From positions 2,855,135-2,919,134 of the forward strand of contig BCGQ01000001.1 in assembly GCA_001599355.1 (NCBI GenBank): a stretch of 64,000 bases of DNA. The letters run 5' to 3'. The notes beneath the pieces were generated by a model. It was given only the letters and a program-made list of their open reading frames with translations. It did no database searches and was not told where the DNA came from. The position numbers and the translations under genes are program-made. Position 1 is the first letter of the stretch; each line of letters starts with the position of its first letter. Source of the DNA: Nakazawaea peltata (taxonomy: Eukaryota > Ascomycota > Pichiomycetes > Alaninales > Pachysolenaceae). This document shows, piece by piece, positions 1-64,000 of the stretch.

Positions 1-216
1 TGGGAAGAGTCTTTGTAAGATGGGTCCTAATTTGTCTCCTATGAAACCCAGAGCTGATCTAAGCCTAAACCCCACCGTACGATACGACGGGTGGTATTTG
101 TTGGCCTTAGCTTTACGTCGAAGATTGGTGAGCCTCGGCATCTTGGTGCTAGTAGCGCTAAATCTTCTCGAGGAGATGGGTTTAAGTGAAGGAAAAGGTA
201 ATTTTTTTCCGCGCAT
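1..216 (-). CDS. Partial basic protein, unidentified, continues past left edge
   Basis: An open frame on the minus strand starts at ATG 216-214, just after an in-frame TAG, and stays open for 72 codons to the window edge. A second in-frame ATG lies at 141-139. The N-terminus is basic and hydroxylated (an RRFSATST segment), followed by a KYHPSYRTVGFRLR segment and a hydrophobic GFIGDKLGPILQRLFP segment. This could be a mitochondrial or membrane protein, but I do not recognise the family. A standard-code translation has one CTG-encoded residue here, which is probably alanine. Support is only the uninterrupted frame and its plausible composition, so it could be a chance ORF. Confidence 0.35.
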   Translation of the reverse strand, partial: MRGKKLPFPSLKPISSRRFSATSTKMPRLTNLRRKAKANKYHPSYRTVGFRLRSALGFIGDKLGPILQRLFP

Positions 217-736
217 GGGCTACTCAAAGATGAAGGGCAGAAACTTAGCAAAACGCATGGAATTGAAAGGCAGGCGGAACGGAGAAAACTAGAGGGAGAT
301 TTTTTTTAGGCGAGATCTGAACTAAAAGTGCAAGGTATTAAAACATGGCATCAAGTGGGTATGAGAAAAGGACATCACCTAATTAGGTGGTAGCTAATAC
401 TTGGATTGTGGCGTGTAGAGAGTAGTACAATGCTTATCAAGTAAATATCACCCCGGTATGTACTACTCTATAGCACATCACCTCTGGTGTTATTATTAAT
501 ACTCAAATTTATAAGTACTTAATAGATTAACGAAACAGGTAAAGCTTATTTCTCTTCTCATACATAGCTTCTCCTTAACTATGCGCTTCCCCTTCACTAT
601 GCGCTTCTCTTAGCTTGTTCAGTACTTGTTTTTCCTCCGTCTCTTCATTTCGTGCTCACTTGTATTTTCTAGCGCTTGAGGTGAAAAAACCTACTCATCT
701 CACCTTTACTCACCTCATCACTTACTCAATCCGACC
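217..736. other. Intergenic, upstream of RMP1
   Basis: No gene is seen. The stretch becomes pyrimidine-rich towards RMP1, with a direct repeat of an ACTATGCGCTTC element at about 580-608. It probably holds the divergent promoters of the left partial gene and RMP1. Confidence 0.5.
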
Positions 737-1357
737 ATGTTGGCTGAAGATCAACTCCGAAATGAATATGAATTGTTATTATTAAACTATCATCGGAACA
801 AAAACCAGCACAAATCGACAGTTTGGTTCAAATATTTGAACATATTGGTACGACAGTTGAGGAAACTCCTAAGCACCGATTCCTCTCTGGTAAAATCAAG
901 TATAGTCAAGTATTTGGATTCTCATTTAATCCCAAAACTGTACTATGCGTTCCAAGGAGTGATAGCTCAGGGACAGTTTATCACACTTGGATTCGCTTTG
1001 GTCGGAAGTTTGGCCAAAATTTATTGTCTTATTCAACCTGCAGTTGTGAAGAAGTCAGCCCTTCCTAGTGCGAGGGCAGCTGTCGGGGTCAAAGAAGCAG
1101 AAAATGCACAAGCCAGTTTAGCTACATATGCTAATGATGACATTGGCGAAGAGATTTCTATTGAAAGCTTGTCCGATAGAGCTCTGTCTCTGCCTCCTGT
1201 GGCCGTGTCTACTTCAATTTCTAAGAACAAATCAATTGACGACATATTCAAATCTAAGGTTAAGAAGTCTTCTATCGATGACATCTTTGGCTCTAAAAAG
1301 AGTTCCAAATCTAAAAAGAAGAAGAAGAAAAGTCTGATAGATAGCATTTTCGGTTAA
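737..1357 (+). CDS. RMP1: RNase MRP subunit Rmp1
   Basis: Rmp1 is the protein specific to RNase MRP, the nucleolar ribonucleoprotein that cleaves pre-rRNA at site A3 and shortens some mRNA 5' ends. The 206-residue product matches the usual size (about 200). The N-terminal half carries the family signature NYHRNKNQHKS at residues 17-27 followed by WFKYLNILVRQLRKLL. The C-terminus has three short repeats of the type IDDIF (SIDDIFK, SIDDIFG, LIDSIFG) separated by lysine/serine runs, a nuclear/nucleolar feature. The start is the first ATG after a pyrimidine-rich leader. Its stop lies 10 bp from that of convergent SPE3, so the two 3' UTRs must overlap. Assignment rests on the N-terminal motif; the rest of the family diverges quickly. 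Confidence 0.85.
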   Translation: MLAEDQLRNEYELLLLNYHRNKNQHKSTVWFKYLNILVRQLRKLLSTDSSLVKSSIVKYLDSHLIPKLYYAFQGVIAQGQFITLGFALVGSLAKIYCLIQPAVVKKSALPSARAAVGVKEAENAQASLATYANDDIGEEISIESLSDRALSLPPVAVSTSISKNKSIDDIFKSKVKKSSIDDIFGSKKSSKSKKKKKKSLIDSIFG

Positions 1358-1367
1358 TTAGAATTAT

Positions 1368-2258: not shown

Positions 2259-2526
2259 CTTCCTCTCCACCTCTATGTAGTGTGACCCAAATTTGCAGCT
2301 TAATGGAAAAAAATCGAAAAAATATATAGGTAATAATTATGCTGAATTAGGGGCATTTTTCCTTTTCCTAACTCATTGCCTATTGAGAGTATTAAGTATG
2401 GATTGATACTACAGAGGAGGGGTACTTCTTGAGGGACAGTGACTAGTCAGGGGAACTGTTAATACTTGTATTGGTTGAAGTTTTCAACTGTACAAAATGG
2501 AAAAAAAAAAAAGAAATAACAAATAA

Positions 2527-2608
2527 TGGATGAAAGGAGGTTCGAACTCCTGCCTCTTTCGAGACTCGATCTTGAGTCGAGCGCCTTAGACCACTCGGCC
2601 ATCCATCC
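2527..2608 (-). tRNA. tRNA-Leu (anticodon CAA), copy 1
   Basis: An 82-nt class II tRNA folds fully by eye. The acceptor is GGATGGA with TTCATCC (one G-T pair) and discriminator A. The D arm starts TGGCCGAGTGGTC. The anticodon stem CTCGA/TCGAG holds loop CTCAAGA (anticodon CAA, reading TTG). There is a long variable arm TCTCGAAAGAGG, and a T stem AGGAG/CTCCT around TTCGAAC. It has no intron, unlike S. cerevisiae tRNA-Leu(CAA). Downstream on the minus strand is a T run suited to Pol III termination. Confidence 0.95.
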
Positions 2609-2878
2609 GTTTTGTTGTAAGTGTTTCCGAGTAATGGGTCCAACTTGTGTGGGATCATTTGTGATTAGGGGCTGTCTGGAATATGTGAAAAAAAAATTTC
2701 AGATGAGGAAGTATTTTGACTAAATGTCAATTTGGTAAATTAAGATCAAGTGGGAAGGTAAATATGATCTGAGAGTAGTTAGCTGATAGAAGAGGACTCG
2801 CTGACCCAGTCAAGATTGAACTCATTTTTCACTTCATTTCAACTGGCAAAAATTGAAAAAAAAAAGAATAACAAATAA

Positions 2879-2960
2879 TGGATGAAAGGAGGTTCGAACT
2901 CCTGCCTCTTTCGAGACTCGATCTTGAGTCGAGCGCCTTAGACCACTCGGCCATCCATCC
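2879..2960 (-). tRNA. tRNA-Leu (anticodon CAA), copy 2
   Basis: Identical in all 82 positions to the copy at 2527-2608: same CAA anticodon, long variable arm and T arm, again without an intron. It is followed by a T run on the minus strand. It belongs to the local duplication that also copied about 45 bases of 3' flank. Confidence 0.95.
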
Positions 2961-3118: not shown

Positions 3119-3192
3119 GCTTCGGTGGCGCAGTTGGCTAGCGCATCAGTCTCATAATCTGGAGGTCGAGAGTTCGAGCCTCTCTCGGAGCA
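3119..3192 (+). tRNA. Elongator tRNA-Met (anticodon CAT)
   Basis: A 74-nt tRNA. Acceptor GCTTCGG pairs with TCGGAGC, discriminator A. Anticodon loop CTCATAA gives CAT, variable loop GAGGT, T arm GAGAG-TTCGAGC-CTCTC. The sequence resembles yeast elongator tRNA-Met rather than the initiator, which begins AGC and lacks the TTC loop. A long T run after 3200 is the Pol III terminator. No intron. Confidence 0.95.
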
Positions 3193-3303
3193 TTTACGTT
3201 TTTTTTTTTCAATTTTATATACGACGATTTTAATCGCGACTGCCATATTTTTTTTTCATAGTTGGACCGAGAGCTTCAATTTAACGCCAGACCATTGAAC
3301 AAG

Positions 3304-10349: not shown

Positions 10350-10686
10350 TGTTATATCACTTGGTTATTACTGCTGAAGTTGTACTTTTGAAGTTATTGA
10401 TTCGTTGTTTTTTTTTCTTCCATTTTGAGGGAGCTACGCGTTTAGAGAGCAATGAGCGGAGGGAGCGAAATAGTGAAGGAGCGGAAAATTAAAGGAGGCG
10501 GAATAGTGAAGGAGCGCGCGGTGGGAGAGTAAAATGCTAGTCTGTTTGAGCATTTTACGATTTTATTGCTTACTTTTTCCTTACTTTTTCCTTACTTTTT
10601 CCCTGCCATTTCCTTCTACTCTCCCTCTATTTCTCTATTTCTCTTACTATTTAAACCCTCCGCCATCCCACTCACCTCTATTCCCC
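10350..10686. other. Divergent promoter between the p24 gene and SWD1
   Basis: No gene. It holds a repeated GTGAAGGAGCG element (around 10472-10518) on a purine-rich stretch, then three repeats of CTTACTTTTTC (10569-10600) and a pyrimidine-rich tract up to the SWD1 start. An ATG at 10534 is in frame with SWD1 but lies in this tract. Confidence 0.5.
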
Positions 10687-11979
10687 ATGAACTTATCCCT
10701 TTTAGACCCCTTCGCAGTCCTGAAAGAGTTCCCAGAAGCATTGACCAACACAATAGGTCTAGATGGTCATGCCACCTTCATTCGTTCAAGCGCCCTGGGT
10801 GACTATCTCGCGTGTGGTCTTCATGATGGCTCCATCGAAATAATAGACTTTGATACTAACGCGGTAATACAAACGTTACGTCATGGTCATTCAAGAGCAA
10901 TCACTTCATTGAGTTGGAGTCCATGTGGCCGTCTTTTGCTTAGTTCATCAAGAGATTGGTGTGTCAATTTATGGGATTTAGCCACCGGTGATGTGATCCA
11001 TTCCAAGACTTTTGAGAGCGCGATTTGGAACTGTGATTTGGATCCAAATAATAGTTTGAGATTCGTGGCGTCTATTTTCGAAGATAAACCTGTGTTTGTC
11101 AACTTTGAGACCGGTGAAATAGTGCAACTTCAAAGTGAACTGCCTGAAGACGCCGATATTCAAAAGAATTACGCTCTCGTTACCATTTTTCATCCACTGG
11201 GCAAGTATATTATCTCGGGTACTTCGAAAGGTTACTTGAATTTTATAGATGTTGAGTCATTACAGATTAAAAAATCGATCAAGTTGGCTAATTCCAACGT
11301 GAAGAATATCGTCGTCTCCAATAAGAATAACAAACTTGTGGTGAATTGTTCAGATCGTATAATAAGACAGATCACTCTTCCGAGTGAACTTTTGGAAGAA
11401 GATCATCCTAATGTGGAAGAATGGGATGACGATTTATTTGAAGTGGAGCAGAAATATCAAGATGTAGTAAACAGATTACAATGGAATAGTGTCCTGTTCA
11501 ATTTCAATGGTGAATATCTCATTCTGTCATCTTTAGGTTCATCTCATGACATTTATATGTGGGAGACATCCTTAGGATCTTTAGTAAAGATCTTGGAAGG
11601 TCCAAAAGAAGAGTTATTCGATGTAGATTGGAACTTCAAAAAATGTACAATACTGGCAACTGGACTTGACTCGGGTGAAATATATATATGGTCGATTCCG
11701 ATCCCACCCAAATGGAGTGCATTGGCTCCCGATTTCGTCGAAGTAGAAGAAAATATCGATTATGACGAAAAGGAAGATGAATTTGATATCATTGAGGATG
11801 AAGATGAGCTTACAAAGAATGATCAGATCGATGATACTAATCAGCAAGAGGAGATTGATGTTGTTTCTCGTGATATGGTGGATGCTCGAGGACTTCTTAT
11901 TCAGAATTCGTTTGTTATTCCTACGATTCTTACGTCACCGTTCTCTCATGCGATAATTTCAGTTGAAGATGTGGAGTGA
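10687..11979 (+). CDS. SWD1: COMPASS histone H3K4 methyltransferase subunit Swd1 (RbBP5)
   Basis: Swd1 is the RbBP5-type WD40 subunit of COMPASS, needed for Set1 stability and H3K4 methylation. The start at 10687 gives MNLSLLDPFAVLKEFPE, matching the beginning of S. cerevisiae Swd1 (MNILLQDPFAVLKE as I recall) and a 430-residue product, close to the 426 known. The in-frame ATG at 10534 would add 51 hydrophobic residues with no counterpart. WD repeats are evident (SLSWSPCGRLLLSSSRDWCVNLWDL; GEYLILSS, IYMWETS; GLDSGEIYIWSIP). An acidic segment (residues about 340-400) precedes the C-terminal GLLIQNSFVIPTILTSPFSH. Confidence 0.96.
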   Translation: MNLSLLDPFAVLKEFPEALTNTIGLDGHATFIRSSALGDYLACGLHDGSIEIIDFDTNAVIQTLRHGHSRAITSLSWSPCGRLLLSSSRDWCVNLWDLATGDVIHSKTFESAIWNCDLDPNNSLRFVASIFEDKPVFVNFETGEIVQLQSELPEDADIQKNYALVTIFHPLGKYIISGTSKGYLNFIDVESLQIKKSIKLANSNVKNIVVSNKNNKLVVNCSDRIIRQITLPSELLEEDHPNVEEWDDDLFEVEQKYQDVVNRLQWNSVLFNFNGEYLILSSLGSSHDIYMWETSLGSLVKILEGPKEELFDVDWNFKKCTILATGLDSGEIYIWSIPIPPKWSALAPDFVEVEENIDYDEKEDEFDIIEDEDELTKNDQIDDTNQQEEIDVVSRDMVDARGLLIQNSFVIPTILTSPFSHAIISVEDVE

Positions 11980-12295: not shown

Positions 12296-14125
12296 ATGGC
12301 TTCCTCGAATGGGAGAAATAGTAGGGCATTTGACGATGGCCCTTTCAATACGCCGCAGTCCCCATCACGGTCCACAAATCGAGACGAACCGCCGTCGTTA
12401 CAAAACTCGGCAATCAATCCACTTCTTAGATCTCCAACGACTCCAAGGAGAAAGAAAGTCGTCTACAGTGATAGGTTCATCCCAAATAGAACGGGAGTTG
12501 ATTTACAAGCGGCTTTCAATTTAGCAAATGACGAAATTAATACAAGGAGGGTGTTAGTGGAGGATTTCGACTCGGTGCCCAGTACTTCTGGCAGTGGACA
12601 TGGCACCAATGGTACGGGAAATGTTAGCGCCGGCTCCAATATCCATAATAACAATAATATAGACTCGGGAAGTGGAGCCAGTGGTAACTCTAATCATCGT
12701 AATAATCTGGCTGATAGTGATATCGATACTCTGAGAGAGGAACAGGCCAATAGAACGTTTAATAGTGTGTTGAAGGCCGAGTTATTCGGTGATAATGTAC
12801 CTAGTGTCGCTGCCAGTTTACATTCCTCCAATAATGGAGATGGTCCCGGTAATAATAATGGTAGTGGAATTGGAGGATCAGCATCTTCTGGAATGCTCGC
12901 ACAGGAAAGAACTCCTCCTAGATCCACCACGACAAGTTCAAGTTTCACAGATTTACTTAATAATGGGACCTCACTGCATTTGGGCAAGACTGCTACAACT
13001 CCGAGACAGAGTGGGAATCTCTTCACTTATCAATCGCCTACCAAAAGTAGACCTACGTCCTCTTCATTGGATATCCATAATGAATTGTATTCTCTTTCTC
13101 CCGTGAGGGCCGAATCTCAACGGTTACTTTTATCCCCACAGAAAAAATTGAGGAATATTTCTAAGGTGCCTTATAGAGTGCTAGACGCTCCGGAACTTGC
13201 TGATGATTTCTATCTCAATTTGGTGGATTGGGGGTCGACTGATATTTTGGGGGTGGGGTTGGGATCTTGTGTATATTTATGGAATGCCAGTACGGGTTCA
13301 GTTAATAGGTTATGTGATTTGGGTCCAAATGACCCGGTTACTAGTATTTCTTGGATCGGGTCTGGTAGCCATTTGGCAATTGGAACTGGGAAAGGTTTGG
13401 TGGAGATTTGGGACGTGCTGACTTCCAAGTGTACTAGAACTATGACAGGTCATACTCTGAGGACCACTTCGTTAGCATGGAACTCTCATATTTTATCTTC
13501 CGGGTCAAGGGATCGTAGTATTTTGCATCGTGATGTTAGAGATCCTTCTCATTTTATTAAAAGATTAGAGGTTCACAAACAAGAAGTCTGTGGATTGAAA
13601 TGGAACGTTGAGGAAAATAAACTTGCCTCGGGAGGTAATGACAATAAACTCTACGTATGGGACGGGTTAAATCAAAAACCTTTGCATAAATTTACCGAGC
13701 ATGTTGCTGCTGTTAAGCTGATTAGTTGGTCTCCACATCAACGTGGGATTCTTGCTTCTGGAGGAGGTACTGCCGATAGACGAATTAAGATTTGGAATAC
13801 TACAAATGGTACGAAATTGCATGACATTGATACGGGATCGCAAGTTTGTAATCTTGCATGGTCGAAGAATTCGAATGAGCTTGTATCAACTCATGGATTT
13901 TCGAAGAATCAAATTATTGTTTGGAAATATCCTTCGATGCAACAAGTGGCTTCATTGATGGGGCATACATACCGTGTACTTTATTTGGCGATGTCACCAG
14001 ATGGTCAAACAGTGGTGACTGGAGCTGGTGATGAAACTCTTCGATTCTGGAATATATTTGACAAAAATAAGAATGAGAATGATCCACCATCAGTTCTATT
14101 GGATGCTTTTATGCAACTTAGATGA
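12296..14125 (+). CDS. CDH1: APC/C activator Cdh1 (Hct1, fizzy-related)
   Basis: WD40 activator that brings substrates to the anaphase-promoting complex in late mitosis and G1. In 609 residues, the C-box DRFIPNR is at residues 59-65 and is preceded by proline-directed sites (TPQSPSR, RSPTTPRRKK) suited to CDK inhibition. A long Asn/Ser/Gly-rich linker follows, then KVPYRVLDAPELADDFYLNLVDW and seven WD repeats including SSGSRDRSI and LASGGGTADRRI. The C-terminus is MQLR, an IR-tail variant. Two CTG codons (13457-13459 in GHTxRTTSLAWN; 13718-13720 in AAVKxISWSPHQ) lie where Cdh1 proteins have alanine. Cdc20 is excluded by the KVPYRVLDAPEL block and long N-terminus. Confidence 0.96.
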   Translation: MASSNGRNSRAFDDGPFNTPQSPSRSTNRDEPPSLQNSAINPLLRSPTTPRRKKVVYSDRFIPNRTGVDLQAAFNLANDEINTRRVLVEDFDSVPSTSGSGHGTNGTGNVSAGSNIHNNNNIDSGSGASGNSNHRNNLADSDIDTLREEQANRTFNSVLKAELFGDNVPSVAASLHSSNNGDGPGNNNGSGIGGSASSGMLAQERTPPRSTTTSSSFTDLLNNGTSLHLGKTATTPRQSGNLFTYQSPTKSRPTSSSLDIHNELYSLSPVRAESQRLLLSPQKKLRNISKVPYRVLDAPELADDFYLNLVDWGSTDILGVGLGSCVYLWNASTGSVNRLCDLGPNDPVTSISWIGSGSHLAIGTGKGLVEIWDVLTSKCTRTMTGHTLRTTSLAWNSHILSSGSRDRSILHRDVRDPSHFIKRLEVHKQEVCGLKWNVEENKLASGGNDNKLYVWDGLNQKPLHKFTEHVAAVKLISWSPHQRGILASGGGTADRRIKIWNTTNGTKLHDIDTGSQVCNLAWSKNSNELVSTHGFSKNQIIVWKYPSMQQVASLMGHTYRVLYLAMSPDGQTVVTGAGDETLRFWNIFDKNKNENDPPSVLLDAFMQLR

Positions 14126-17117: not shown

Positions 17118-18584
17118 ATGAAGGTTGGGGTATTATCTATTTTGGCCAGCGCGGTCCATGGATTCAATTTATTTGAATGGGCTTTCGACCAGGCTACAGG
17201 AATTGAGCCTATTATTCAACAAGGAAATTCTGTCAAGGGGTTCTTCAATGAGTTACACCACAGTTGGGAACATGTTAAAGATGAGGCCCTTGATGGTTAC
17301 TCCATAAGAGTTAAACAACAACTGTCACCTGAAAGTTTGGGGATTGACACTGTAGATCAATATTCTGGATATTTAGATATTGAAAATGAAGATAAACATT
17401 ACTTTTATTGGTTTTTTGAGTCTAGAAATGACCCAGCTAATGACCCGGTCATTTTATGGTTGAATGGAGGACCTGGTTGTTCAAGTATGACAGGATTGTT
17501 CTTCGAATTGGGACCTTCTTCGATAGGACAAGATTTGAAACCAATTTATAACCCATATTCTTGGAATTCTAATGCTTCTGTTATCTTCTTGGATCAACCA
17601 ATTGGAGTGGGATATTCTTATTCTTCCACTCAAAATGTGTCATCTACAGCACTGGCTGCAAAAGATGTGTATGCTTTCTTACATTTATTCTTCTCTAAAT
17701 TCGATCATTTGCAGAAGAATGACTTCCATTTAGCAGGAGAGAGTTATGCTGGTCATTATATTCCTAAATTTGCTTCAGAAATCATTAATCATAAAGATAG
17801 CATCTTCAAATTGACCTCTGCCATTATTGGGAATGGTATTGTGAACGCCAAGATTCAACATGCTTCATTCAAGCCGATGGCATGTGGTGAAGGGGGTGTT
17901 CCTCAACTTATAAGTGACGAAGAATGTGCCGAAATTGATGCTATGTATCCAGAATGTGTTAGACTGATCGAGGTTTGTGAATCTCATCCTTCTATTCTTA
18001 CTTGTGAACTGGCTTCTGATTATTGTACTAAGATGTTGGAGCCAGTCATGAAAACAGGCAGGAACCCTTACGATCTTCGTGTTAATTGTACTGGGAATGG
18101 AGGTTGTTATGAGCAAGAGAATTGGTTCACCGAATTCTTAAACTTACCAGATGTCATGGATCTGTTAGGTGTTGAAGTTTCGTCTTATGAATCCTGTAAT
18201 GGGGAAGTGTTGAAAAATTTCTATCATCAAGGTGATAGAGTCTTCCCATTCGATGGGTATGTGACAGAATTACTCGAAAATGGGGTTCCAGTCTTAATTT
18301 ATGCCGGTGATAAAGATTTCAGATGTAATTGGGTCGGTACTGAAATGTGGACTAGTCGATTACCATGGTCAGGTCATGAAAACTTCAACGAGAAACCTTT
18401 AGAACCTTGGTTTACCGATTATCAACCAGACAAATCTCTGGGAGAACTCAAAAGTTATAATAATTTCACCTACTTGAGGATCTACGAAGCTGGACATATG
18501 GTCCCATTCAACCAGCCAGAAAATTCCCTTCTGATGATCAATGAATGGATCTCAGGAAACTACATTTTAAATAAGAAGAAATAA
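17118..18584 (+). CDS. Vacuolar serine carboxypeptidase Y, copy A (S10 family)
   Basis: Vacuolar protease that removes C-terminal residues. In 488 residues: signal peptide (MKVGVLSILASAVHG), short propeptide, then the mature domain from about residue 75. The catalytic triad is visible: Ser209 in GESYAG, Asp400 in GDKDF, His460 in GHMVPF. WLNGGPGCSS holds Cys121, and YESCN holds Cys360; these equal the Cys56-Cys298 disulfide of S. cerevisiae CPY, and all eight other disulfide cysteines are also present. N-glycosylation sites (NAS, NVS, NCT, NFT) are visible. A CTG at 18162-18164 falls where the family has alanine (before LG in VMDxLGVE). A paralogue lies at 43135. Confidence 0.93.
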   Translation: MKVGVLSILASAVHGFNLFEWAFDQATGIEPIIQQGNSVKGFFNELHHSWEHVKDEALDGYSIRVKQQLSPESLGIDTVDQYSGYLDIENEDKHYFYWFFESRNDPANDPVILWLNGGPGCSSMTGLFFELGPSSIGQDLKPIYNPYSWNSNASVIFLDQPIGVGYSYSSTQNVSSTALAAKDVYAFLHLFFSKFDHLQKNDFHLAGESYAGHYIPKFASEIINHKDSIFKLTSAIIGNGIVNAKIQHASFKPMACGEGGVPQLISDEECAEIDAMYPECVRLIEVCESHPSILTCELASDYCTKMLEPVMKTGRNPYDLRVNCTGNGGCYEQENWFTEFLNLPDVMDLLGVEVSSYESCNGEVLKNFYHQGDRVFPFDGYVTELLENGVPVLIYAGDKDFRCNWVGTEMWTSRLPWSGHENFNEKPLEPWFTDYQPDKSLGELKSYNNFTYLRIYEAGHMVPFNQPENSLLMINEWISGNYILNKKK

Positions 18585-18674: not shown

Positions 18675-20588
18675 CTAGTATTGGTAGGTGTGAATTTCTG
18701 GAACGTGTTCAACCTTAACCATTGGTCTATATTGAGGTCTCCACATTTGCTTCTTGACCCATTCGACACATTCATCAAAGTCTCTTGGGACTTGAACTTG
18801 TTGACCGTCTGGTCTTTGTTCGGACTCGACTCTGGCAACACCTTCTTCCAAGGCTTGCAAGATCATGGCAGTAGCAACTTGAGCAGAGACTTCATCGATC
18901 TCTTCCAATCTTGGCAACAAACCGGCTCTTGGGTCCTTGAACAGAGGAGACAAGGACAGTAATTTGTCAACAGCAGCAGAGATCATGGTGTCGGTGATAA
19001 CAGAGGCTCTGGACAACAAAGCACCCAAACCAATACCTGGGAAGGTGAAACAGTTGTTGTTCTCGGAGATAACGTGACCATTAACTGGCTTGAATGGAGA
19101 TCCAGTAGCAATAAGAGCTTGCTCGTCGGTCCATTTCATAATGTCAGCTGGGATGGCTTCATGCAATCTAGTTGGGTTGGAAAGTGGGAAGACAATTGGT
19201 CTAGAGTTGTGTTTGTGCATTTCTCTAATGATTTCTTCGGTGAAGGCACCAGCTTGGGTGGAACATCCAACCAAAACAGTTGGCTTGATCTTCTTGACAA
19301 CCTCCAAAAGACTGGATTTGTCAACACCTTCCCATTCTTTAGCACTGTCGGCATATTTCATTTGATCTTCGGTGTTAGAAGTGGAGTCATCGAGGATCAA
19401 ACCGTTTCTGTCAAGACAGTGAATCTTAGCTCTAGCCTCCTCTGGAGTAGCACCATGAGAAACCATGTGGTTAACAATTTGATCGGCAATACCTAAACCG
19501 GCGGAACCAGCACCGTAGATGATGACCTCGGAATCCAACAAGTTTCTGTCGGTGATCTTCAAAGCAGCGGTCATAGAAGCCATGACAACGGCACCGGTAC
19601 CTTGAATATCGTCATTGAAACATGGGACAATGTCTCTGAACTTCTTCAAGATTGGTCTGGCGTTCAAGACACCGAAATCTTCAAAGTGAACAATAGCACC
19701 TGGGAATTTCTCCTTGACGGTCAAGAGGAACTTCTCGATGAATTGATCGTATTGTTCACCTCTAACTCTTGGGAATTTGTTACCCATGTACAACTCATCG
19801 TTGATCAAGTTTTGGTTGTTAGTACCGGTATCTAAAGTGACTGGGATAACTCTACCTGGGTGAATACCACCACACAAGGTCATCAAACCTAACTTGGCAA
19901 TGGCAATTCTGATACCACCGACACCTTGGTCTCCAATACCCAAGATACCTTCACCGTCACTTACAACGATGTAGTCGATATCCTTAGATTCACCGAATCT
20001 GGACAAACGGTCACCGATGGAGTCTGGGTCGGTGATATCCAAGAAACAACCTTCTGGCTTTCTGAAACGGTTAGAGTAAGCAGCAATAGCATCACCTTCA
20101 GTTGGAGTGTAGACAATTGGCAATAATTCTCTAATATGTCTTCTAACCAATTCGTAGTATAAGACCTTGTTTTGGACTCTCATGGAGGAACAGAAATCGT
20201 TCTTCAGCAATGGGGTCTTCAAGTAACACAATTGAGCGTAAGCTCTTTCGACTTGCTCGTCCAAAGTGTTAACTTGACTTGGCAACAAACCGGTCAAATT
20301 GAAGGCATCTCTTTCCTCGTGAGTGAAGGCAGAACCCTTGTTGAACAATGGGGAGTTCAACAATTGGAAACCGGTCAAATCACATTCAACTGGACCTTCA
20401 ACCGATAATCTGGTGATCTTTGGCAGACTCAACTTAGATTCAAGTTCCAGTTGGTGGCCGACAGGAGTCTTAACAGTGTGAGTGTGTAAATGAGTGGACT
20501 GCAGCGCGGCAGCAGAGGTTGGCTTCGAGTAGAAGCGAACTCTTTGTCCCAAAGTTCTAGTATTGATTCTATTAGAAATTCTCAACAT
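18675..20588 (-). CDS. MAE1: Mitochondrial NAD-dependent malic enzyme
   Basis: Oxidatively decarboxylates malate to pyruvate in the mitochondrial matrix. The start is ATG 20588 (MLRISNRINTRTLGQRVRFYSK), giving a clear mitochondrial targeting sequence; the frame upstream begins only with TTG. In 637 residues: malic-enzyme signatures LPIVYTPTEGDAI, FLDITDPDSIG, VSDGEGILGIGDQGVGGI, HFEDFG, FNDDIQGTGAVV, and the Rossmann loop IYGAGSAGLGIA. The C-terminal VDKLxSLSP segment has CTG (18957-18959) where malic enzymes have alanine. Codon bias suggests strong expression. It is convergent with carboxypeptidase Y copy A (90 bp gap). Confidence 0.96.
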   Translation of the reverse strand: MLRISNRINTRTLGQRVRFYSKPTSAAALQSTHLHTHTVKTPVGHQLELESKLSLPKITRLSVEGPVECDLTGFQLLNSPLFNKGSAFTHEERDAFNLTGLLPSQVNTLDEQVERAYAQLCYLKTPLLKNDFCSSMRVQNKVLYYELVRRHIRELLPIVYTPTEGDAIAAYSNRFRKPEGCFLDITDPDSIGDRLSRFGESKDIDYIVVSDGEGILGIGDQGVGGIRIAIAKLGLMTLCGGIHPGRVIPVTLDTGTNNQNLINDELYMGNKFPRVRGEQYDQFIEKFLLTVKEKFPGAIVHFEDFGVLNARPILKKFRDIVPCFNDDIQGTGAVVMASMTAALKITDRNLLDSEVIIYGAGSAGLGIADQIVNHMVSHGATPEEARAKIHCLDRNGLILDDSTSNTEDQMKYADSAKEWEGVDKSSLLEVVKKIKPTVLVGCSTQAGAFTEEIIREMHKHNSRPIVFPLSNPTRLHEAIPADIMKWTDEQALIATGSPFKPVNGHVISENNNCFTFPGIGLGALLSRASVITDTMISAAVDKLLSLSPLFKDPRAGLLPRLEEIDEVSAQVATAMILQALEEGVARVESEQRPDGQQVQVPRDFDECVEWVKKQMWRPQYRPMVKVEHVPEIHTYQY

Positions 20589-39124: not shown

Positions 39125-41641
39125 TCATTTCTTCTTCTTACGGTAGTAGACCTTTTGAATGATCGAGTTACCTTTGAGTTCCTTATTCTTGTTCTTTCCA
39201 TATTCGATGTAGGCCATATCTTCACCACCTGCCAAACTTGCTAATGTTCCTGCTGTTCTGTTGGCTCTGGAACGGTTCAGGTCATTTCTGGCTCTCTTGT
39301 TGATACCACCGCCTACTAAATTATCGGCATCTTCACCGGCCTCGATACCTGCGGCATCCTCGTTCTTTAAGAGCACTTGTTGAAGCAATTCTCTACGCTC
39401 TCTCGCTGAGGCATATGCTAAATCAGGAAGGTTTTCCATCCCGTGTAAATGAGTGATCACTTTGAAAGCATACCCTTGATCTACTAAGAACAGTTGTCTT
39501 TTGGTGGAGTAGTACATTTCTTGAGTGTCTTTGGACACCAATGAATAGAAGAAAGCATTGAAACCTTCGTCATTTCTTCTCTTGGCTCTCAAAATTCTAC
39601 CTAATCTTTGGGCTTCTTGACGTCTTGAACCATAATGAGAAGAGATTTGAATCAAGCAAGTCAGTTCAGGCAAATCAATCGAGGTGTCTCCCACTTTCGA
39701 TAAGAAAATAGTATTCACTTGGTCATTATATTGGAAATTTTGTAAGATATTCATTCTCTCCAGTTGAGGAGTTGATCCGTAAATGAAAGGTTTACCCAAT
39801 TTCAATGCATATTCTTGTAAAGCATAAACGTTATCGGAGAAGACAATGATCTTGTCACCTCTTGTTTCATGATAATGAATCAAAAATTGACATGCTTGGA
39901 ATTTGGTTGGGTTCATAATGTATAAAAGCATTCTTTTTCTGGCGCTTTCTTTCAAATATTCTTGATAGAATTCGGCCGTCATTGGACACCAAACTTCGGC
40001 ACATTGAACGTTAGCAATATGACCCTTCTGAGCCAAATCCATCCAATTGGCCTCATATAATTTAGGTCCAATAAGGAAATTCAAATCTCCGATTTTATCA
40101 TCTTCTCTAACCAAAGTAGCTGTTAATCCCAATTTAGCGTGAGCAGCAATGGTTGTGACGACTCTTCTGAACATTGCAGCTGGAACGACATGCACTTCAT
40201 CCATGATAATGAAACCCCATTCTCTTCCTGTTAAGAAATCCATCACTTTTTGAGAATCATGAGATCTATTTCTGGTGTTAGCCACCATGGAATAAGTCGA
40301 AACCACCAAACCGGCTTCAGTTGCAAACATTTCTTTATTTTCAGAGGTGAAAACCGCCACTTGTTCAGGTTGTAAAGTACACCATTGCAAAAATTGTTGT
40401 CTCCATTGCATAACAGACACCGAAGAAGTACATAAAACGATTACTGACTTCTTTATAGTACAAGCAGCTGTAATTCCTACTAAAGTTTTACCAGCACCAC
40501 AAGGTAAGACAATGATACCTGATCTTGCACGACCATTACCAAACATTTTACTCAAAGACTTCTCTTGATATGGTCTAATTTGCGTGGAAGGTTTCAAATC
40601 GATCTCCAAATTAGGATTTCTTGTATCGTTTTTGAAATCGTATTCTTCTAAGACTGGGTAGTCGATTTCTTGACATCTTTTCTTGACAAGTTCGACAGAT
40701 TCATGAGAGATTTCGAACGAATGAACAGTCTCCATGTCATCGTCGTCATCAGCTTTGTCTCCAATGACAGAGGCAAAGATATCTTCTATATCTTCATTTT
40801 CGTTTTTCTCAGGTTCTTGATTGACTTTGGTACCGTCAGGCTTCAAAGTTCCTGGGATCACCAAATCACCTTGAGTAGGTTTAGCATCTCTTAATAATTC
40901 CTCAGTGGTGGTCTTGACTCTAAGAGGTCCAATGACTTCATCTTGTAATAACATCCTCAAAATATCAGCATGAGGAGATTCGACGAAATATCTATTATGT
41001 TTCAAGACCAATTTGACTTTACCATAAGAAATGGTGGCAGATCTGATGAAATTGATGATCGAAGGAGCCACCGGGACTTTGGATAATCTATTCAACACAC
41101 TAATAATGTCTTCAGTTTCTAAACCAACCGAAACAGCGGCATACAAAGAGTACGCAGTGATTCTATACTCATGAATAAAGCTGGGACGACTGATAGGTTC
41201 AGCTATGGTGACTAAGAAATCTTGAGCCTGTTCGAAAAGAGGCGAGAATCCTTCTAAAATGATCCTACCGTCATTAGGAGAGATCCATAACGGTCTAGAT
41301 GAATGATCAGGTTTCAATTTGAGGTATGAAAAGTCTGTCCGACCGAAAATATGCGACACAGAGTCGGGAATGAAGTCCGAAGGTCTCTCCATACTCACCT
41401 CTATCAACTCGTCGTCATTATATTGCACGTCATCGACTTCAGAGCGGATTTTATCGACGGCGCTCTTAGCGCGGACGTTCCTCAGCAGCTTCAGCTTGAA
41501 TTGATCTTCGTAATCGGACATGCTGGTGTCCGAATCCGAGGAGAAGTCGTCATCTCTTGGCTCTTCATCGATATTGACGGCGGCAGAGTTGCCTCCATTC
41601 AACTCCAGATAATTTTGTCTGGTTCTTTGACGTGTTGACAT
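39125..41641 (-). CDS. SSL2: TFIIH helicase/translocase Ssl2 (Rad25, XPB)
   Basis: XPB translocase of TFIIH, which opens promoters for RNA polymerase II and damaged DNA in nucleotide-excision repair. In 838 residues (S. cerevisiae 843): N-terminal domain with [20 protein letters not shown], then [20 protein letters not shown], Walker [16 protein letters not shown] box [26 protein letters not shown], and helicase motifs [36 protein letters not shown]. The C-terminus has [19 protein letters not shown]. Two CTG codons, 39662-39664 ([13 protein letters not shown]) and 39491-39493 ([16 protein letters not shown]), sit at alanine positions of S. cerevisiae Ssl2. Convergent with FUN30. Confidence 0.98.
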
Positions 41642-41889: not shown

Positions 41890-42834
41890 TTATTCGGTGA
41901 ATTTGTAACTTCCACTGGCCATGGTGATCGATCCACCTCTATAAGCACCACGCTTCATTTTGTTCTTGTTCTTTGTGAAGTCTTTACCTCTTACCAGACC
42001 CAATTTAACGTTGGCGATTTCACCCCAAGTACCAGCGGCTCCTTTGTAGGTGTTATCTTGTAATTCTTGACTTTCGAAAGAGATTTTTGATCTATCGATT
42101 CTAGAAAAATGGTGTCTTTGACCAGGTTTTAATTCTTCCTGGTTTTCGGATGCAGAGACGTATTCTTCAGAGGAGCTTCTGGAGATGTCATTGGATGATT
42201 CGGTTTTTGGTTTTTTGGTAGCTGGGGTTTCAGATTCTTCTGATTTTCTTTTGTTTGATTCTGAGTCAGAACTAGAATCCGAGTCAGAGTCAGAGTCGGA
42301 GTCAGAATCGGAGTCAGAGCTAGAGTCAGAGTCAGAGTCAGAACTAGAGTCGGAGTCAGAATCAGAATCAGAGCTAGAGTCAGAATCAGAGTCAGAGTCA
42401 CTAGAGCTTGAACCAGACTCAGTCTTCTCGTCCTTCTTAGATTCAGTTTCAGACTCAGAATCAGAACTCGAATCGGAGTCGGAATCAGAATCAGAATCGG
42501 AGTCAGAGTCAGAACTAGATTCAGAGTCGGAGTCAGAATCAGAGTCAGAATCGGAGTCAGAACTAGAGTCAGAGTCAGAGTCAGAGCTATCATCAGAGCT
42601 ATCATCAGAGCTATCATCAGAGCTATCGTCAGAGCTGTCATCAGAGTCAGAACCATCATCAGATCCAGACTTCTCCTCCTCCTTTCCTAACAACTTCTCC
42701 AACTTCTCATCGTCCTTCAACTCAACAACCTCAACATCTTTCTCCTTAAGCTCCTTACTCAAGGCTTTCAGAGCCTTTCCAAATCCTTTCAGGGTCAAAT
42801 ACTCCAAAACTTGTGATAATTCCTTACTAGACAT
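41890..42834 (-). CDS. SRP40: Nucleolar Ser/Asp-repeat protein Srp40 (Nopp140-like)
   Basis: Nucleolar chaperone-like phosphoprotein related to Nopp140, linked to snoRNP and pre-ribosome transport. The start is ATG 42834 ([22 protein letters not shown]); the frame upstream has only TTG. In 314 residues: an N-terminal LisH-like motif (residues 1-35), a long alternating Ser/Asp run (about 60-210) that would be a CK2 substrate, a KRKSEE nuclear signal, and the conserved C-terminal SRP40 domain. The latter shows [48 protein letters not shown] and [13 protein letters not shown]. The repeat DNA explains several long overlapping frames on both strands; these are not genes. Confidence 0.93.
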
Positions 42835-43085
42835 CGTATGTTTCTTTTCAACTACCCTCTTTATCTCATCTAAAATCAAGATGAAAATTTTTTAAATTTG
42901 ATTTTTCAAAATTTTCTTTTCTTTTCCGTGATGAGCTTCCTTATTAGGCAATAAAAGTGATATCCGTATCTGGAAGTCAAAACATATGTCAGAACACCGG
43001 ATTCCTAATTAGGAAGTTGCTAGGTCTTCCCGATGAGGAAACCCCATCGGGCTTATCTTTCCCCCCGTACGGCTCCAAATTCAAT

Positions 43086-43093
43086 TATAAATA
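43086..43093 (+). promoter_or_regulatory. TATA box of carboxypeptidase Y copy B
   Basis: TATAAATA, an exact consensus match, lies 42 bp before the preferred start codon at 43135. It argues against the longer in-frame opening at 43033, which is upstream of it. Confidence 0.6.
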
Positions 43094-43134
43094 TACAACA
43101 GATAGGTCCCAAAGAAGGTCAATTGAGGTCAAAG

Positions 43135-44739
43135 ATGAAATTATCAGTTATTGCCACTTTGTTGGGAGTATCCAACGCAATCAATTTACAGCAACTGTTC
43201 GTGTCGAAATTCCTGGACTCGGAATTGCTCAACAAAGCCGCCCTGTTGTACGGTGGCCACCATACTGAGGGGTTAAATGAAGGTATCTTATCTGCTTGGA
43301 TGGAGATGGAAAAGGTCGTTCCAAAGGAGGAGATCGAGGCTGCTATGAAGAACTTCAATGAGTATGTCCAAGGCCCTGTTAAGTCTGGACTGAAGAAAGC
43401 TGTTGACAAAGCTAAGCAAATCGCCTGGGATTATGTGGCCAATGAGGACAAATTCCTGGATTACAAGTTGAGAGTCAAGAAAACTCACCCTGAAACCTTG
43501 GGTGTTGACACTGTTGAACAATACTCTGGTTACTTGGATGTTGAATCTGAGGACAAACATTTCTTCTACTGGTTCTTTGAGTCCCGTAACGACCCAGCTA
43601 ATGACCCTGTCGTTTTATGGTTGAATGGAGGACCTGGTTCTTCAAGTATGACTGGATTATTCTTTGAATTGGGTCCTTCTATGATCACCGATCAAAAGGG
43701 ACCTCACTTCAATCCTTACTCTTGGAACTCTAATGCTTCTGTTATCTTTTTGGAGCAACCTGTCGGTGTAGGATATTCTTACTCTGGTGGAGCCAAAATT
43801 GGATCTTCTGCACTGGCTGCTAAAGATGTCTATGTTTTTTTGGAATTGTTCTTCCAAAGATTCCCTCAATTCTTGAAGAATGATTTCCACATCTCCGGAG
43901 AGAGTTACGGTGGTCATTATTTACCAGCTATTGGATCTGAGATCATCAACAGGGCCGACAGATCGTTCCAATTGAAATCTGTCTTGATTGGTAACGGAAT
44001 CACCGATGCTTTAATCCAATACGCTTACTATCAACCAATGGCCTGTGGTAAGGGAGGATACAAACAAGTCATTTCCGATGAAGAATGTGAAGAATTGGAC
44101 GAACTTTATCCAAAATGTGCCAAATTAATTCAAACTTGTTACGATACCCAGAACGCTTTCGCTTGTATCCCAGCTTACTTGTATTGTGAGTCCAAGATCA
44201 TGACTCCTTACTCCAAGACTGGATTAAACGTCTACGATATCAGAAAAGACTGTGGTGAAAGTAACTTGTGTTACGATGAGTTGACTTACATGGAAGAATA
44301 CATGAACAAGCCAGAGGTTATGGAGCTGTTGGGAGCCGAAGTCGATGAGTACAAGATGGCCAGTGACTCCGTTTTCCAACAATTCTTCTTAACTGGAGAT
44401 GAACCTAAACCATTCCAACAATTTGTTGCCGAATTATTGGAAGCCAAGGTCCCGGTCTTGCTCTATGCTGGAGACAAGGATTACATTTGTAACTGGTTAG
44501 GTAACCATGCTTGGTCCGATCTGTTAGAATGGTCAGGTCATGAAGGTTTCGCTAGTGATGAATTGAAACCTTGGGTCACTTTAGATTCTGAAATCCATGC
44601 TGGTGATGTTAAGAGTTTCGGTAACTTCACTTTCTTGAGGGTTTACGATGCTGGTCATATGGTTCCATTTGATCAACCAGAGACTGCCTTAGATATGCTC
44701 AACAGATGGCTTGGTGGGGATTATACATTTGGATATTAG
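43135..44739 (+). CDS. Vacuolar serine carboxypeptidase Y, copy B
   Basis: Preferred start 43135 gives a signal peptide (MKLSVIATLLGVSNAI), a propeptide of roughly 100 residues and the mature S10 domain, 534 residues in all. Triad: Ser257 (GESYGG), Asp449 (GDKDY), His508 (GHMVPF). It is closely related to copy A at 17118 but has stronger codon bias. Unlike copy A and S. cerevisiae CPY, the cysteine in the GGPGxSS loop is Ser (residue 169, codon 43639-43641) and its disulfide partner is Ala (residue 409, codon 44359-44361). The other eight disulfide cysteines remain. CTG 44326-44328 (VMExLGAE) falls on a family alanine. Which copy is the PRC1 orthologue cannot be settled by eye. Confidence 0.94.
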   Translation: MKLSVIATLLGVSNAINLQQLFVSKFLDSELLNKAALLYGGHHTEGLNEGILSAWMEMEKVVPKEEIEAAMKNFNEYVQGPVKSGLKKAVDKAKQIAWDYVANEDKFLDYKLRVKKTHPETLGVDTVEQYSGYLDVESEDKHFFYWFFESRNDPANDPVVLWLNGGPGSSSMTGLFFELGPSMITDQKGPHFNPYSWNSNASVIFLEQPVGVGYSYSGGAKIGSSALAAKDVYVFLELFFQRFPQFLKNDFHISGESYGGHYLPAIGSEIINRADRSFQLKSVLIGNGITDALIQYAYYQPMACGKGGYKQVISDEECEELDELYPKCAKLIQTCYDTQNAFACIPAYLYCESKIMTPYSKTGLNVYDIRKDCGESNLCYDELTYMEEYMNKPEVMELLGAEVDEYKMASDSVFQQFFLTGDEPKPFQQFVAELLEAKVPVLLYAGDKDYICNWLGNHAWSDLLEWSGHEGFASDELKPWVTLDSEIHAGDVKSFGNFTFLRVYDAGHMVPFDQPETALDMLNRWLGGDYTFGY

Positions 44740-59475: not shown

Positions 59476-61278
59476 ATGACTGACAGTAGAGTTAATGATG
59501 AGTTCTGGAGTTCTAGGATCTCTGTCGTGAGAGAAAATACCCTCCCATCGATGTATAAATTGTTGAAAGAGACAGGGAGATGGGACTTGATGAAACTTAA
59601 GGTGAAGGAAGGCTCGAAGCCACATTATTTCTGGGATTCGGATGTGGCCAAGTTTTTGGAGGCTGTGTGTTATTCCTTGCATTATATGACCCCTGAAGAC
59701 CCATTGTACGAGACCTTCCACTCGTGGGTCGATGAGCTGGCTCATATGATCGTACTGGCTCAGCAGCCTGATGGATATCTCAACAGTTATTTTACTATAG
59801 TTGAGCCTGAGAAGAAATTGACCAATATCACTGAGAAGCATGAGCTTTACTGTTTGGGTCACTTATTGGAAGCTGCAATTGCTCATTTCAAGCTCACTGG
59901 TAAGACTTATCTTTTGGATGCTCTCTGTCGGTACTTGGACTTAATTTGTGACATTTTTGGTCCTGAAGAGGGGAAAAGACATGGATATCCTGGTCATCAA
60001 GAAGTTGAGTTGGCAATTGCTAAATTGCTCGATGTCAAATGGGAGGAAAGATACTTTAAACTTTTGAACTATTTCATCGAACAAAGAGGTTATAATGATG
60101 GAGAATTTTTCGATCAGGAAGCACGTGGTAGAGGTATCGACCCTTACAGATACATTCTTGGTGATAGTGAAGGTGCACCATCTTGGCCAAGACCTAGATT
60201 TTACGAGTATTATCAGGCAGAAACTCAAATTAGAGATACAAAAGAGGTCAAGGGTCATGCCGTAAGACAATTCTATTTCCTCACTGGAGTCCAGAGATTG
60301 GCTCAATTCAAGGATGATGACTCTCTTAGAGAGGCTGTCACTTTGTTATGGAATAATCTGGCTTCCAAAAAGATGTATTTACATGGAGGTATTGGCGCAG
60401 TTGGTAATTGGGAGGGCTTTGGAGATGAGTATGTATTACCTTGGGAAGGTTACTCGGAAACTTGTGCCTCTTGTGCCATGGTTTTCTGTGCTCAGGCTAT
60501 CTTGAAAGACCGTCTCGATGCGAATGTTGCACTTATCCTGGAGAGAGCTCTTTTCAACGATGTCCTTGGAGGAGTCTCTTTGGATGGTCTTGCCTATTAT
60601 TATGACCAACCTATCTGTGGAAGCAAGGGTCTCAAAAGACAGGACTGGTTTGTCTGTAGTTGTTGTCCTCCAAATGTGGCTAGGTTGTTCAACAATCTTG
60701 AGGAGTATGTATGTTCTAAGCTTGGAGATGTTTTAGCTATTCATTACTATATCGGAGGAACCTACTACCTGGAAGGCAGTAAAATCACCGTCAAATCCCA
60801 ATATCCTTACTATGGGAGCTTAGAGGTCAGTGTATCTGAAGAAAATGTCGCTGAGTTGGCCATTAGAGCACCAACTCATGCATTCACCATCAATACCTCT
60901 GACTGGAGACTCCAAGATGGATATATTTTATTCGGTGCAAAGCTGCTCTCAGGTACTATTAAGATCGATTTCAAAATGCAGGTTGAAACCATTGCCCCAA
61001 ATCCAAAAGTTCATGCCAATAGGGGATGTCTTGCAGTTAAGTTTGGGCCATTTGTTTATGCAATTGAAGCCAATGGTGTACAATCGGGTTACTCATTAGA
61101 CGATTTGAGATTGTCCAAACATACGGTTTTCACCAAGGTAAAAGCTTCGTTGAATGGCTGCCATTTTTGGCAATTAAAAGCCGATTTAAACGGTATCGAG
61201 CTGAACTTTGTTCCTTATTTTGTTACTGGGAACATTCACCCTGGTGAAGACTTTAGAATGTGGGTGAAGGAGCTGTAA
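59476..61278 (+). CDS. GH127 family glycoside hydrolase (beta-L-arabinofuranosidase-like)
   Basis: 600 residues with no signal peptide or membrane segment, so probably cytosolic. The family (formerly DUF1680) removes beta-L-arabinofuranose from plant or hydroxyproline-linked sugars; some members act on other sugars. Conserved features: NDEFWSSRI start, AQQPDGYLNSYFT, ELYCLGHLLEAAIAH, GYPGHQEVELA, GHAVRQFYFLTG, MYLHGGIGA and YVLPW. The catalytic zinc/cysteine set is intact: Glu328 and Cys330 in SETCAS, Cys396 and Cys397 in SCCPPN, corresponding to Glu338, Cys340, Cys417 and Cys418 of the Bifidobacterium enzyme as I recall. CTG 59755-59757 (IVxAQQPDGYL) is at a family alanine. The family is bacterial and filamentous-fungal and scattered in yeasts, so transfer is likely. 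Confidence 0.9.
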   Translation: MTDSRVNDEFWSSRISVVRENTLPSMYKLLKETGRWDLMKLKVKEGSKPHYFWDSDVAKFLEAVCYSLHYMTPEDPLYETFHSWVDELAHMIVLAQQPDGYLNSYFTIVEPEKKLTNITEKHELYCLGHLLEAAIAHFKLTGKTYLLDALCRYLDLICDIFGPEEGKRHGYPGHQEVELAIAKLLDVKWEERYFKLLNYFIEQRGYNDGEFFDQEARGRGIDPYRYILGDSEGAPSWPRPRFYEYYQAETQIRDTKEVKGHAVRQFYFLTGVQRLAQFKDDDSLREAVTLLWNNLASKKMYLHGGIGAVGNWEGFGDEYVLPWEGYSETCASCAMVFCAQAILKDRLDANVALILERALFNDVLGGVSLDGLAYYYDQPICGSKGLKRQDWFVCSCCPPNVARLFNNLEEYVCSKLGDVLAIHYYIGGTYYLEGSKITVKSQYPYYGSLEVSVSEENVAELAIRAPTHAFTINTSDWRLQDGYILFGAKLLSGTIKIDFKMQVETIAPNPKVHANRGCLAVKFGPFVYAIEANGVQSGYSLDDLRLSKHTVFTKVKASLNGCHFWQLKADLNGIELNFVPYFVTGNIHPGEDFRMWVKEL

Positions 61279-63006
61279 TAGAGCAGCCCATTGTTTATAT
61301 AACTTGATCTTCTTCTATTGTATAGCCTGAGTTTAATACAAAGAATTACATATCCAACTGTTTGGCTACTATGTAGAATTTCTAATCATTTGTGAGCTCT
61401 GTTGTTAAAAAAGAACAGAAATTTAGATTTGCGAAAAAGCCAGGGTGTCTTTGCTTATCAAATTAAGTCTGTACAGATGATCTGTAATATTTGTGCTCTT
61501 CTCATATGAGCTTTTTACGAAATCACTCCCTGCGTATGTCAAAAAGTCGAGCAACTCCGCCTTTTCTCCGAGATAGAAACGCTTCCGAGACTCTTAATCT
61601 GGAGTTTGTGAGAATCTTTAGACCAATACAATTCCACTCTAGTCAAAATCAAGAAATCTGTAAGGAGCTAATTGGACCATGTCTTCTAAAGCTTTTTACT
61701 GCTTCTTCAATATTGGTGGATTTTGTTTTCACCCCCAATTTTTGTCTTCATCTAATGAAGACAAGGTTGTTTAGAATGATGAAAAAAAAAAGAAAAGGTT
61801 GTATAAACAGAGATCAGCGAAAACTCGATTAAACATTGAACTTTGATAGCAGAAGAGTTTTTTCTTGAGCCCGGTATCTTATTGGCGGACTGACTGTCGC
61901 TTCTCGGCCCTTTCACTAAATTTTGTGATTTCTAGTGTTTTTTTACCCTTTTCGGAAATGACAAATAAAAAAAAAGTCGGCCCGCGCTAAGAACCCTACC
62001 TATATCGTGAGGAGGCCCCGCAAAAAAAAGATTTTGAGAGAAAAACCAAGAACGTCTCAAACACCTCCTCTGGACAACGCATAGCTTTGGACTCTTCGCA
62101 CTATATATTTGAATTACAGCACACTTCTTCCTTTATTTTACCTTAGCATGAGAGACATATCTGTTTAAATTCAGTTTCTAATGCTGCTCCTGTGTTCAAA
62201 AAAAGAGAACATTCGATTTCAACGGGAGATAAGAGAGGTGCAAACGAAGTCTCATTCTGAAAATCTCGGCATTTCCTTGCAGAAGCGACTTGCACCAATG
62301 AAGACTCAAAAGAGTGCTAAAATTGAACAATGCAATTATTTTATAAGAGGTTGATTGATTACAAGCCCAAATAGGATACATTTCGCTCTTGCCAATCATG
62401 TACTCAGTTATTGTCTCAGTATCACGCAAATTGTATGAATCATTTGCTGACATCTTGTTAACACCTGATTACACGCTTCTCGTTTGTACAATTGACGCAG
62501 AACGCTCGTATCTCAATAATTTGACGAAAATGGATAAAAATGCATGGATCTTAACGTGTTTTTCTTTTTCTTTTCAAAACTTTTTCTCCTTGGAACAGAT
62601 ATAAAACGACATGAATTTCGCTTTTGACTTCTTTTTTATCATTTTTCAGACTAATGCCATTAATTACTGTCAGAGTTTTCGAGTTCAAACAAAAGTTTAA
62701 GCTTTGAGACCACTGAGGTCTGCCGTGGTCTGTAAGCCGCCTATATATGATACTTTGTTCACGGAAACTTGAGGACAAAACACTGGATCTGATATTTTCA
62801 GGGTGCCAAATCCGGTATTGTGTCTAAAGCCCTCCGACAGAAGTTCACCTTTCAGACTAGGTGAATGCCAATATGTTTTTCTGAGGTAACTCATAGAAAA
62901 ATGGCCTGTGGTTCAAAGGCCCAATAATTTTTTTGATAAGATATAAAAGGTGGGACTTTTGCTGCTTCTCGATCCTCAGTGACAATCAACTGCACAACAT
63001 AATAAG
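61279..63006. other. 1.7-kb gene-poor region before the adhesin
   Basis: No convincing gene. A 113-codon frame (61491-61832) has no recognisable domain and a Lys-rich low-complexity end. Contents are A/T-rich runs, a 13-bp match to the 5' end of U2 snRNA at about 61897-61909 that does not extend, and a TATA box near the adhesin. Large regulatory regions are usual for adhesin genes. Confidence 0.5.
62941..62948 (+). promoter_or_regulatory. TATA box of the adhesin gene
   Basis: ATATAAAA at 62941-62948, about 60 bp upstream of the ATG at 63007. Confidence 0.5.
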
Positions 63007-64000
63007 ATGAGAGGTCAACTTAAATGGGCATCATTGGCTCTTTGGTGTTGCCTTGCAGGCATATCTCAAGCGGCAGGTGACGGTAATAACTCCCTGTCAG
63101 ATGAAGCTTATGGATGTGATGTCGCCCTTTCTGCTTATTCAACAGGATTCAACGTTCAGTTTTATGACTACCCTTACAATGATACAGTTTTGTATTATGA
63201 GCTGGAATTCATGGAATCGGGTTATACTTCCCAGACAAAGACCGCAAATACCACTGGAGTCAATAATATTACTATCTGGCAACCTGATATTGATATCGCG
63301 GACACTTCTACGTCTACAGGTGAAATATATGGAGTAACAATTTATTGGAGTCACTTCGTGGCTGAGTTGAAGGGATATTTTTATGCCAAAGAGTCTGGGC
63401 ATTACTTGTTCAACTTACTTGTGGCAGATGACGCTTGTATGGTTTTCTTCGGAACAGAATCCGCTTTCGAGTGCTGTAACGATAACGCCTATGTTATCGA
63501 TAATAACACTGACCCTTATTTACTCTACACCACCAGAGCAATCAGCGAACTGGTCTATTCGTCTATGAGTGCTTCGAAATATCTTGAAGCAGGCTATTAC
63601 TATCCTATGAGAGTCGTTTATGTCAATAGAATCAAAATTGCGTTGCTCAATTTCACCGTCACTACACCTTCCAAGGAAGTCATTCAAAATTGGGATGAAT
63701 GGATTTACGAATTTGATGACACAGATGATGAAGATCAATGCAGCTCAGTTACAGCATCTGTATCTACTACTACCCTCACCTCCCATTGGCTGGAGTCGTA
63801 TACATCAACCACCACGACAACACTGACGAATGGAGATGTTACCGAGATCGTAGATGTCCCTTATTCAACTGAAACAACAACTGAGGGATGGAGCAACCAG
63901 TACACCAGTACCACAACAACCACTGGCCCTGACGGAGATGTAACAGTCATCGTTGAGACGCCTACTCATGTACCATCCACTGTCACAACTACTGATCCTT
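63007..64000 (+). CDS. Flocculin-like adhesin with PA14/GLEYA lectin domain, partial
   Basis: The frame opens at ATG 63007 and has no stop through the right edge (331 codons seen). Signal peptide LKWASLALWCCLAGISQA; then a PA14/GLEYA-type domain: GCDVALSAYSTGFNVQFYDYPYND, IYGVTIYWSHFVAELKGYFYAKESGHYLFNLLVADD, SAFECCN. Asp141-Asp142 fit the calcium-binding DcisD motif of yeast flocculins, and the CC pair (156-157) is typical. From about residue 245 come Thr-rich repeats (YTSTTTTT, DGDVTVIVETPT) like Flo1-type repeats; the part seen has about two and a half units. Expected to continue as a long Ser/Thr stalk with a GPI signal. Role: cell-cell or surface adhesion, ligand unknown. Confidence 0.88.
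   Translation, partial: MRGQLKWASLALWCCLAGISQAAGDGNNSLSDEAYGCDVALSAYSTGFNVQFYDYPYNDTVLYYELEFMESGYTSQTKTANTTGVNNITIWQPDIDIADTSTSTGEIYGVTIYWSHFVAELKGYFYAKESGHYLFNLLVADDACMVFFGTESAFECCNDNAYVIDNNTDPYLLYTTRAISELVYSSMSASKYLEAGYYYPMRVVYVNRIKIALLNFTVTTPSKEVIQNWDEWIYEFDDTDDEDQCSSVTASVSTTTLTSHWLESYTSTTTTTLTNGDVTEIVDVPYSTETTTEGWSNQYTSTTTTTGPDGDVTVIVETPTHVPSTVTTTDP

Follow-up and report, generated by a model that had tools for sequence, protein, structure and literature searches.

A 64-kb stretch of budding yeast nuclear DNA whose CTG codons fall preferentially at alanine positions, as in the CUG-Ala clade

Translation of CUG as alanine was reportedly first described in papers of 2016. In Krassowski et al. 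2018 (PMC5951914), this change counts among the very few sense-codon changes of nuclear genomes, and an Ala clade is reported that carries a novel CAG-anticodon tRNA derived from tRNA-Ala, the code having been concluded for the clade from BLAST comparisons and mass spectrometry. The same paper agrees with the initial annotation of the DNA considered here, which had named Pachysolen, Nakazawaea, and Peterozyma as the genera known to decode CUG as alanine; these are exactly the genera of the family Pachysolenaceae (order Alaninales) in the NCBI taxonomy. Shulgina and Eddy 2021 (PMC8629427) report that, for 453 of 462 yeast species, the predicted CUG meaning fits the known clades. The whole stretch analyzed here, 64 kb in length and hereafter called the window, derives with a probability of roughly 95% from the nuclear genome of a budding yeast that belongs to this clade and translates CUG as alanine. 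Its in-frame CTG codons coincide with alanine positions more often than with those of leucine, serine, or another residue, and alanine, as initially proposed, tops both alignment-based tests (residues of PDB homologs and Pfam profiles), ahead of leucine and serine. The observation is real and correctly interpreted, and the code variant is already known (NCBI table 26). Membership in the Alaninales and Pachysolenaceae, judged from the genetic code alone, is most likely.

The analysis was performed on the 32 open reading frames (ORFs) of the window, two overlapping ORFs at 42129-42895 being left out, and sequence comparison identifies clear yeast homologs for many of the products. In-frame CTG is found 232 times among 16,412 codons, stops counted, in 30 of these ORFs, and the 12 positions quoted in the initial annotation, 11 for alanine and one against, are all CTG in the frame of the named ORF. 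Pfam scans covered 20 of the 30 CTG-bearing proteins, holding 184 of the 232 codons, under tables 26 (CTG as Ala), 1 (Leu), and 12 (Ser), the meanings of tables 26 and 12 being checked directly. Scores were summed over 34 domain matches of our own choice, one family per stretch with overlapping rows left out, the bit scores being entered in the summing script by hand. Table 26 reaches the highest total. It exceeds leucine by 121.6 bits, with 20 matches better, 7 worse, and 7 tied, and serine by 34.8 bits, with 22 better, 3 worse, and 9 tied; the biggest gains over leucine come from the Sel1 repeats (20.8 bits), Rrn3 (13.4 bits), and the Vps8 TPR (12.5 bits). Swd1 was summed as the WD40 family; its top-scoring family, PF25174, would instead bring the totals to 115.3 bits over leucine and 32.6 over serine.

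In the second test, ten proteins, each CTG written as X, were compared against PDB chains, and the second of two carboxypeptidase Y (CPY) paralogs was aligned to yeast CPY by script. From 38 listed alignments, 18 distinct homologs (19 pairings) were realigned, several of them trimmed to one aligned stretch, and sites were counted where the flanks match well, a filter that 37 of the 81 CTG codons of 11 proteins pass. At these 37 sites the BLOSUM score gives +15.3 bits for alanine, +1.1 for serine, and -15.5 for leucine. Of the 59 other sense codons with data, 58 come out of the same pipeline with their standard amino acid, including all five other leucine codons and all six serine codons; the single miss is CGG, with 3 sites, and stop codons stand outside this check since they define the ORFs. 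The alanine signal is therefore beyond chance, because CTG gives alanine where nearly all other codons give their standard residue. Alanine wins 1950 of 2000 bootstraps, the others going to Lys (25), Gln (12), Met (7), Ser (3), Asn (2), and Arg (1), with none for leucine. Under emissions trained on the codons of the window itself, serine falls 31.4 and leucine 69.3 bits behind. Among the filtered CTG columns in which at least two homologs agree, three are alanine (Cdh1-475, GluRS-139 of glutamyl-tRNA synthetase, and Swd1-331).

Regarding individual sites, five of those first put forward as alanine positions show alanine in the aligned homologs. Ssl2 codon 660 (DLPExTC; 39662-39664, minus strand) faces alanine in yeast and animal homologs, Cdh1 codon 475 (AAVKxISWSPH; 13718-13720, plus strand) in all five listed alignments, essentially two proteins (yeast and Fizzy-related), and codon 544 of the malic enzyme Mae1 (18957-18959, minus strand) in all three listed homologs. 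Codon 349 of CPY paralog 1 (VMDxLG; 18162-18164, plus strand) is alanine in yeast CPY and two listed animal lysosomal homologs and is CTG in paralog 2, and at codon 432 of paralog 2 (VMExLG; 44326-44328, plus strand) yeast CPY has alanine. Further sites on the plus strand point the same way: codon 139 of glutamyl-tRNA synthetase (EEGHxYRC; 32205-32207), alanine in all five listed homologs; Swd1 codon 331 (LIxSSL; 11524-11526), alanine in the S. cerevisiae and K. lactis proteins and in one more SWD1-like homolog; and CPY paralog 1 codon 441 (18438-18440), alanine in yeast and animal homologs and GCT (Ala) in paralog 2. Two others, also on the plus strand, are mixed, namely CPY paralog 1 codon 179 (17652-17654; alanine in yeast CPY and Glu in the animal homologs, with CTG again in paralog 2 at 43813-43815) and glutamyl-tRNA synthetase codon 89 (32055-32057; Ala/Ser/Ser/Tyr/Ala). 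Over the nine CTG-bearing columns of the CPY pair, two are CTG in both paralogs at alanine positions of yeast CPY, one is CTG/GCT (Ala), one is CTG/TTA (Leu), and five pair CTG with other residues. The two paralogs (17118-18584 and 43033-44739, both plus strand) are 56% identical over 432 aligned residues and lie ~24 kb apart.

Overall, nine of the 11 sites initially quoted for alanine are backed, four of them weakly. Ssl2 codon 717 (KRQxFLVDQG; 39491-39493, minus strand) is alanine in yeast and Arg in the animal homolog; Cdh1 codon 388 (GHTxR; 13457-13459, plus strand) is alanine in the Fizzy-related homolog and Asp in yeast. The sole CTG codons of Erg26 and Spe3 lean slightly toward alanine in Pfam, by 1.7 bits over leucine in Erg26 (292.4 versus 290.7, serine 291.3) and 0.8 bits in Spe3 (242.7 versus 241.9, serine 242.1). 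The remaining two, GH127-94 (Arg or Gly in the listed homologs) and Pde1-121 (Pro in a single homolog), were dropped as evidence for alanine. The codon first cited as a counter-case aligning to leucine, Mae1 549 (18942-18944, minus strand), does meet leucine, in a variable column (Leu, Asn, Gln).

A number of observations weigh against decoding as alanine. Alanine, the commonest residue at the 37 CTG sites, stays below a majority (35.6%), versus 60.5% opposite GCN codons, CTG sites being less conserved than GCN sites. Agreeing columns other than alanine are Arg at GH127-94 and leucine at Swd1 codon 63 (FAVxKE; 10720-10722, plus strand), which is leucine in the S. cerevisiae and K. lactis proteins and, next to a gap, in another homolog, and which is the clearest site against alanine. 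The ORF of Swd1 (10534-11979, plus strand) has itself ~51 extra N-terminal residues, and Met52 is the likelier start, as suggested by homolog alignments that begin at Met52 or residue 53. GH127 codon 355 (ALIxERAL; 60538-60540, plus strand) faces Met/Leu/Leu in three distinct homologs, CPY paralog 1 codon 283 (17964-17966, plus strand) has leucine as its counterpart both in yeast CPY and, encoded by TTA, in paralog 2, and Ret2-138 is a leucine- or methionine-like site. These four sites make the pattern non-uniform, which would reflect drift at loose positions. Seven of the 34 Pfam matches score better with leucine, by 3.7 bits for the GH127 catalytic domain, 2.7 for the Ret2 adaptor domain, and at most 1.1 for each of the other five. 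Among the overlapping rows left out of the sum, leucine is likewise favored in Erg26 (Epimerase, 101.6 for alanine versus 103.2; GDP_Man_Dehyd, 56.7 versus 57.9), Cdh1 (PF25173, 169.6 versus 171.8; PF25175, 74.5 versus 76.4), and Fun30 (ResIII, 54.7 versus 56.1), and alanine in Ssl2 (Helicase_C, 52.8 versus 49.7). An alignment-free context classifier sets CTG apart from alanine contexts (p = 8e-5 for Ala/Leu, 1.3e-5 for Ala/Ser, 7e-4 for Ala/Thr) and does not distinguish it from leucine (p = 0.33) or serine (p = 0.66). It is given little weight because it separates the classes poorly, with areas under the curve of 0.51 to 0.60.

We consider it unlikely that CUG is mainly alanine with a real leucine minority, through incomplete reassignment or a competing tRNA-Leu(CAG), or that the window comes from a CUG-Ala yeast beyond the three known genera. 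Quite improbable is a serine reading of the kind found in the Candida (Ser1) and Saccharomycopsis/Ascoidea (Ser2) clades, which could be confused with alanine since alanine and serine columns are alike. Serine does rank second in both column scores, and Pfam favors it for PDEase_II, DUF5595, and TPR_VPS8_2; against this stand its deficits to alanine in Pfam, in the BLOSUM score (14.2 bits), and in the empirical emissions, a best-fit fraction of 0 (0-14%) in a mixture with a background component, and the true serine codons, which do return serine in the same test.

Less probable again is an ambiguous CUG, mainly alanine with a sizeable leucine share supplied by competing tRNAs or mischarging. 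A two-component mixture of alanine and leucine yields a leucine share of 13% (2-31%), a further point against alanine alone, and the Ser2 clade is known to have CAG tRNA genes that compete with each other (PMC5951914). A background component was then added because leucine is expected at background frequency at unconstrained positions, and the leucine share becomes 4% (0-22%) and not significant, in a script that differs from the two-component one also in pseudocounts and in the averaging of multiple homologs per site. In this three-component mixture, removal of leucine costs a 2dLL (twice the log-likelihood difference) of 0.45 and removal of alanine ~23, so no leucine component is needed once unconstrained sites are modeled. 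Alignment columns are unable to reveal ambiguity at translation, and a low level of leucine incorporation at CUG may be compatible with them. Lastly, an ordinary leucine CUG with alanine sites arising by chance can be dismissed, for although Swd1-63, GH127-355, and CPY1-283 are leucine-like, the GH127 Pfam score is higher under leucine, and the weak context classifier cannot tell CTG from leucine contexts, this reading costs 121.6 bits in Pfam and leaves leucine below background in the column score while the five other leucine codons return leucine; nothing short of a misalignment confined to CTG could save it. The serine and leucine readings were both rejected on the Pfam and column scores, the CTG columns being mainly neither.

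Decoding of CUG as alanine would be carried out by a tRNA-Ala whose anticodon has mutated to CAG, a step described in the literature and presumed for this genome. Such a tRNA would be charged with alanine because alanyl-tRNA synthetase does not need particular anticodon bases, and the former tRNA-Leu(CAG) would have been lost. Alanine identity of a tRNA is conferred by G3-U70. ARAGORN and Rfam identify the same three tRNA genes in the window and no tRNA(CAG) within its 64 kb, which counts against alanine decoding and has no bearing on the rest of the genome. The three are a tRNA-Leu with anticodon CAA, reading TTG (2527-2608, minus strand), a second copy of identical sequence (2879-2960, minus strand) with ~270 bases between the two, and a tRNA-Met with anticodon CAT (3119-3192, plus strand). 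A T-arm pattern search of the window returns one match, with 1.1 expected by chance, and no further tRNA.

Two other genes of the window deserve mention. The GH127 gene (59476-61278, plus strand) encodes a beta-L-arabinofuranosidase-like enzyme with PDB homologs 35-38% identical, presumably bacterial, and a horizontal origin is possible. A single scan of prokaryote genomes for relatives gives 24 stretches that fit a pattern, none of which tblastn identifies as a relative, so that no columns were added. A long Ser/Asp repeat protein, which we take to resemble Srp40, is encoded at 41890-42834 (minus strand), and its repeat keeps overlapping ORFs open on both strands.

The genes of this organism need table 26, without which translation of the listed ORFs would be wrong at ~1.4% of residues (232 of 16,412 codons). 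The window supplies the published CUG-Ala clade with a further, internally controlled locus, and 64 kb can be enough to tell a genetic code. The G+C content of P. tannophilus is ~30%. That of the window is 40.4% (36-43% per 4 kb), closer to the 42.3% given for Nakazawaea ambrosiae in Table 2 of PMC10106607 than to the P. tannophilus value, a difference by which P. tannophilus would be a less probable source. As under table 26, the code of Pachysolen tannophilus nuclei, the CTG columns of the window are alanine, 58 of 59 other codons are standard, and the Pfam score is best; no difference from that system was found in the window's code. The likeness to the CUG-Ser codes (table 12; Ser1 and Ser2) is that the same codon is reassigned, there by way of a tRNA that belonged to a different amino acid and acquired a CAG anticodon by mutation, as PMC5951914 reports, whereas the amino acid differs, serine lying 34.8 bits below alanine in the window's Pfam scores.

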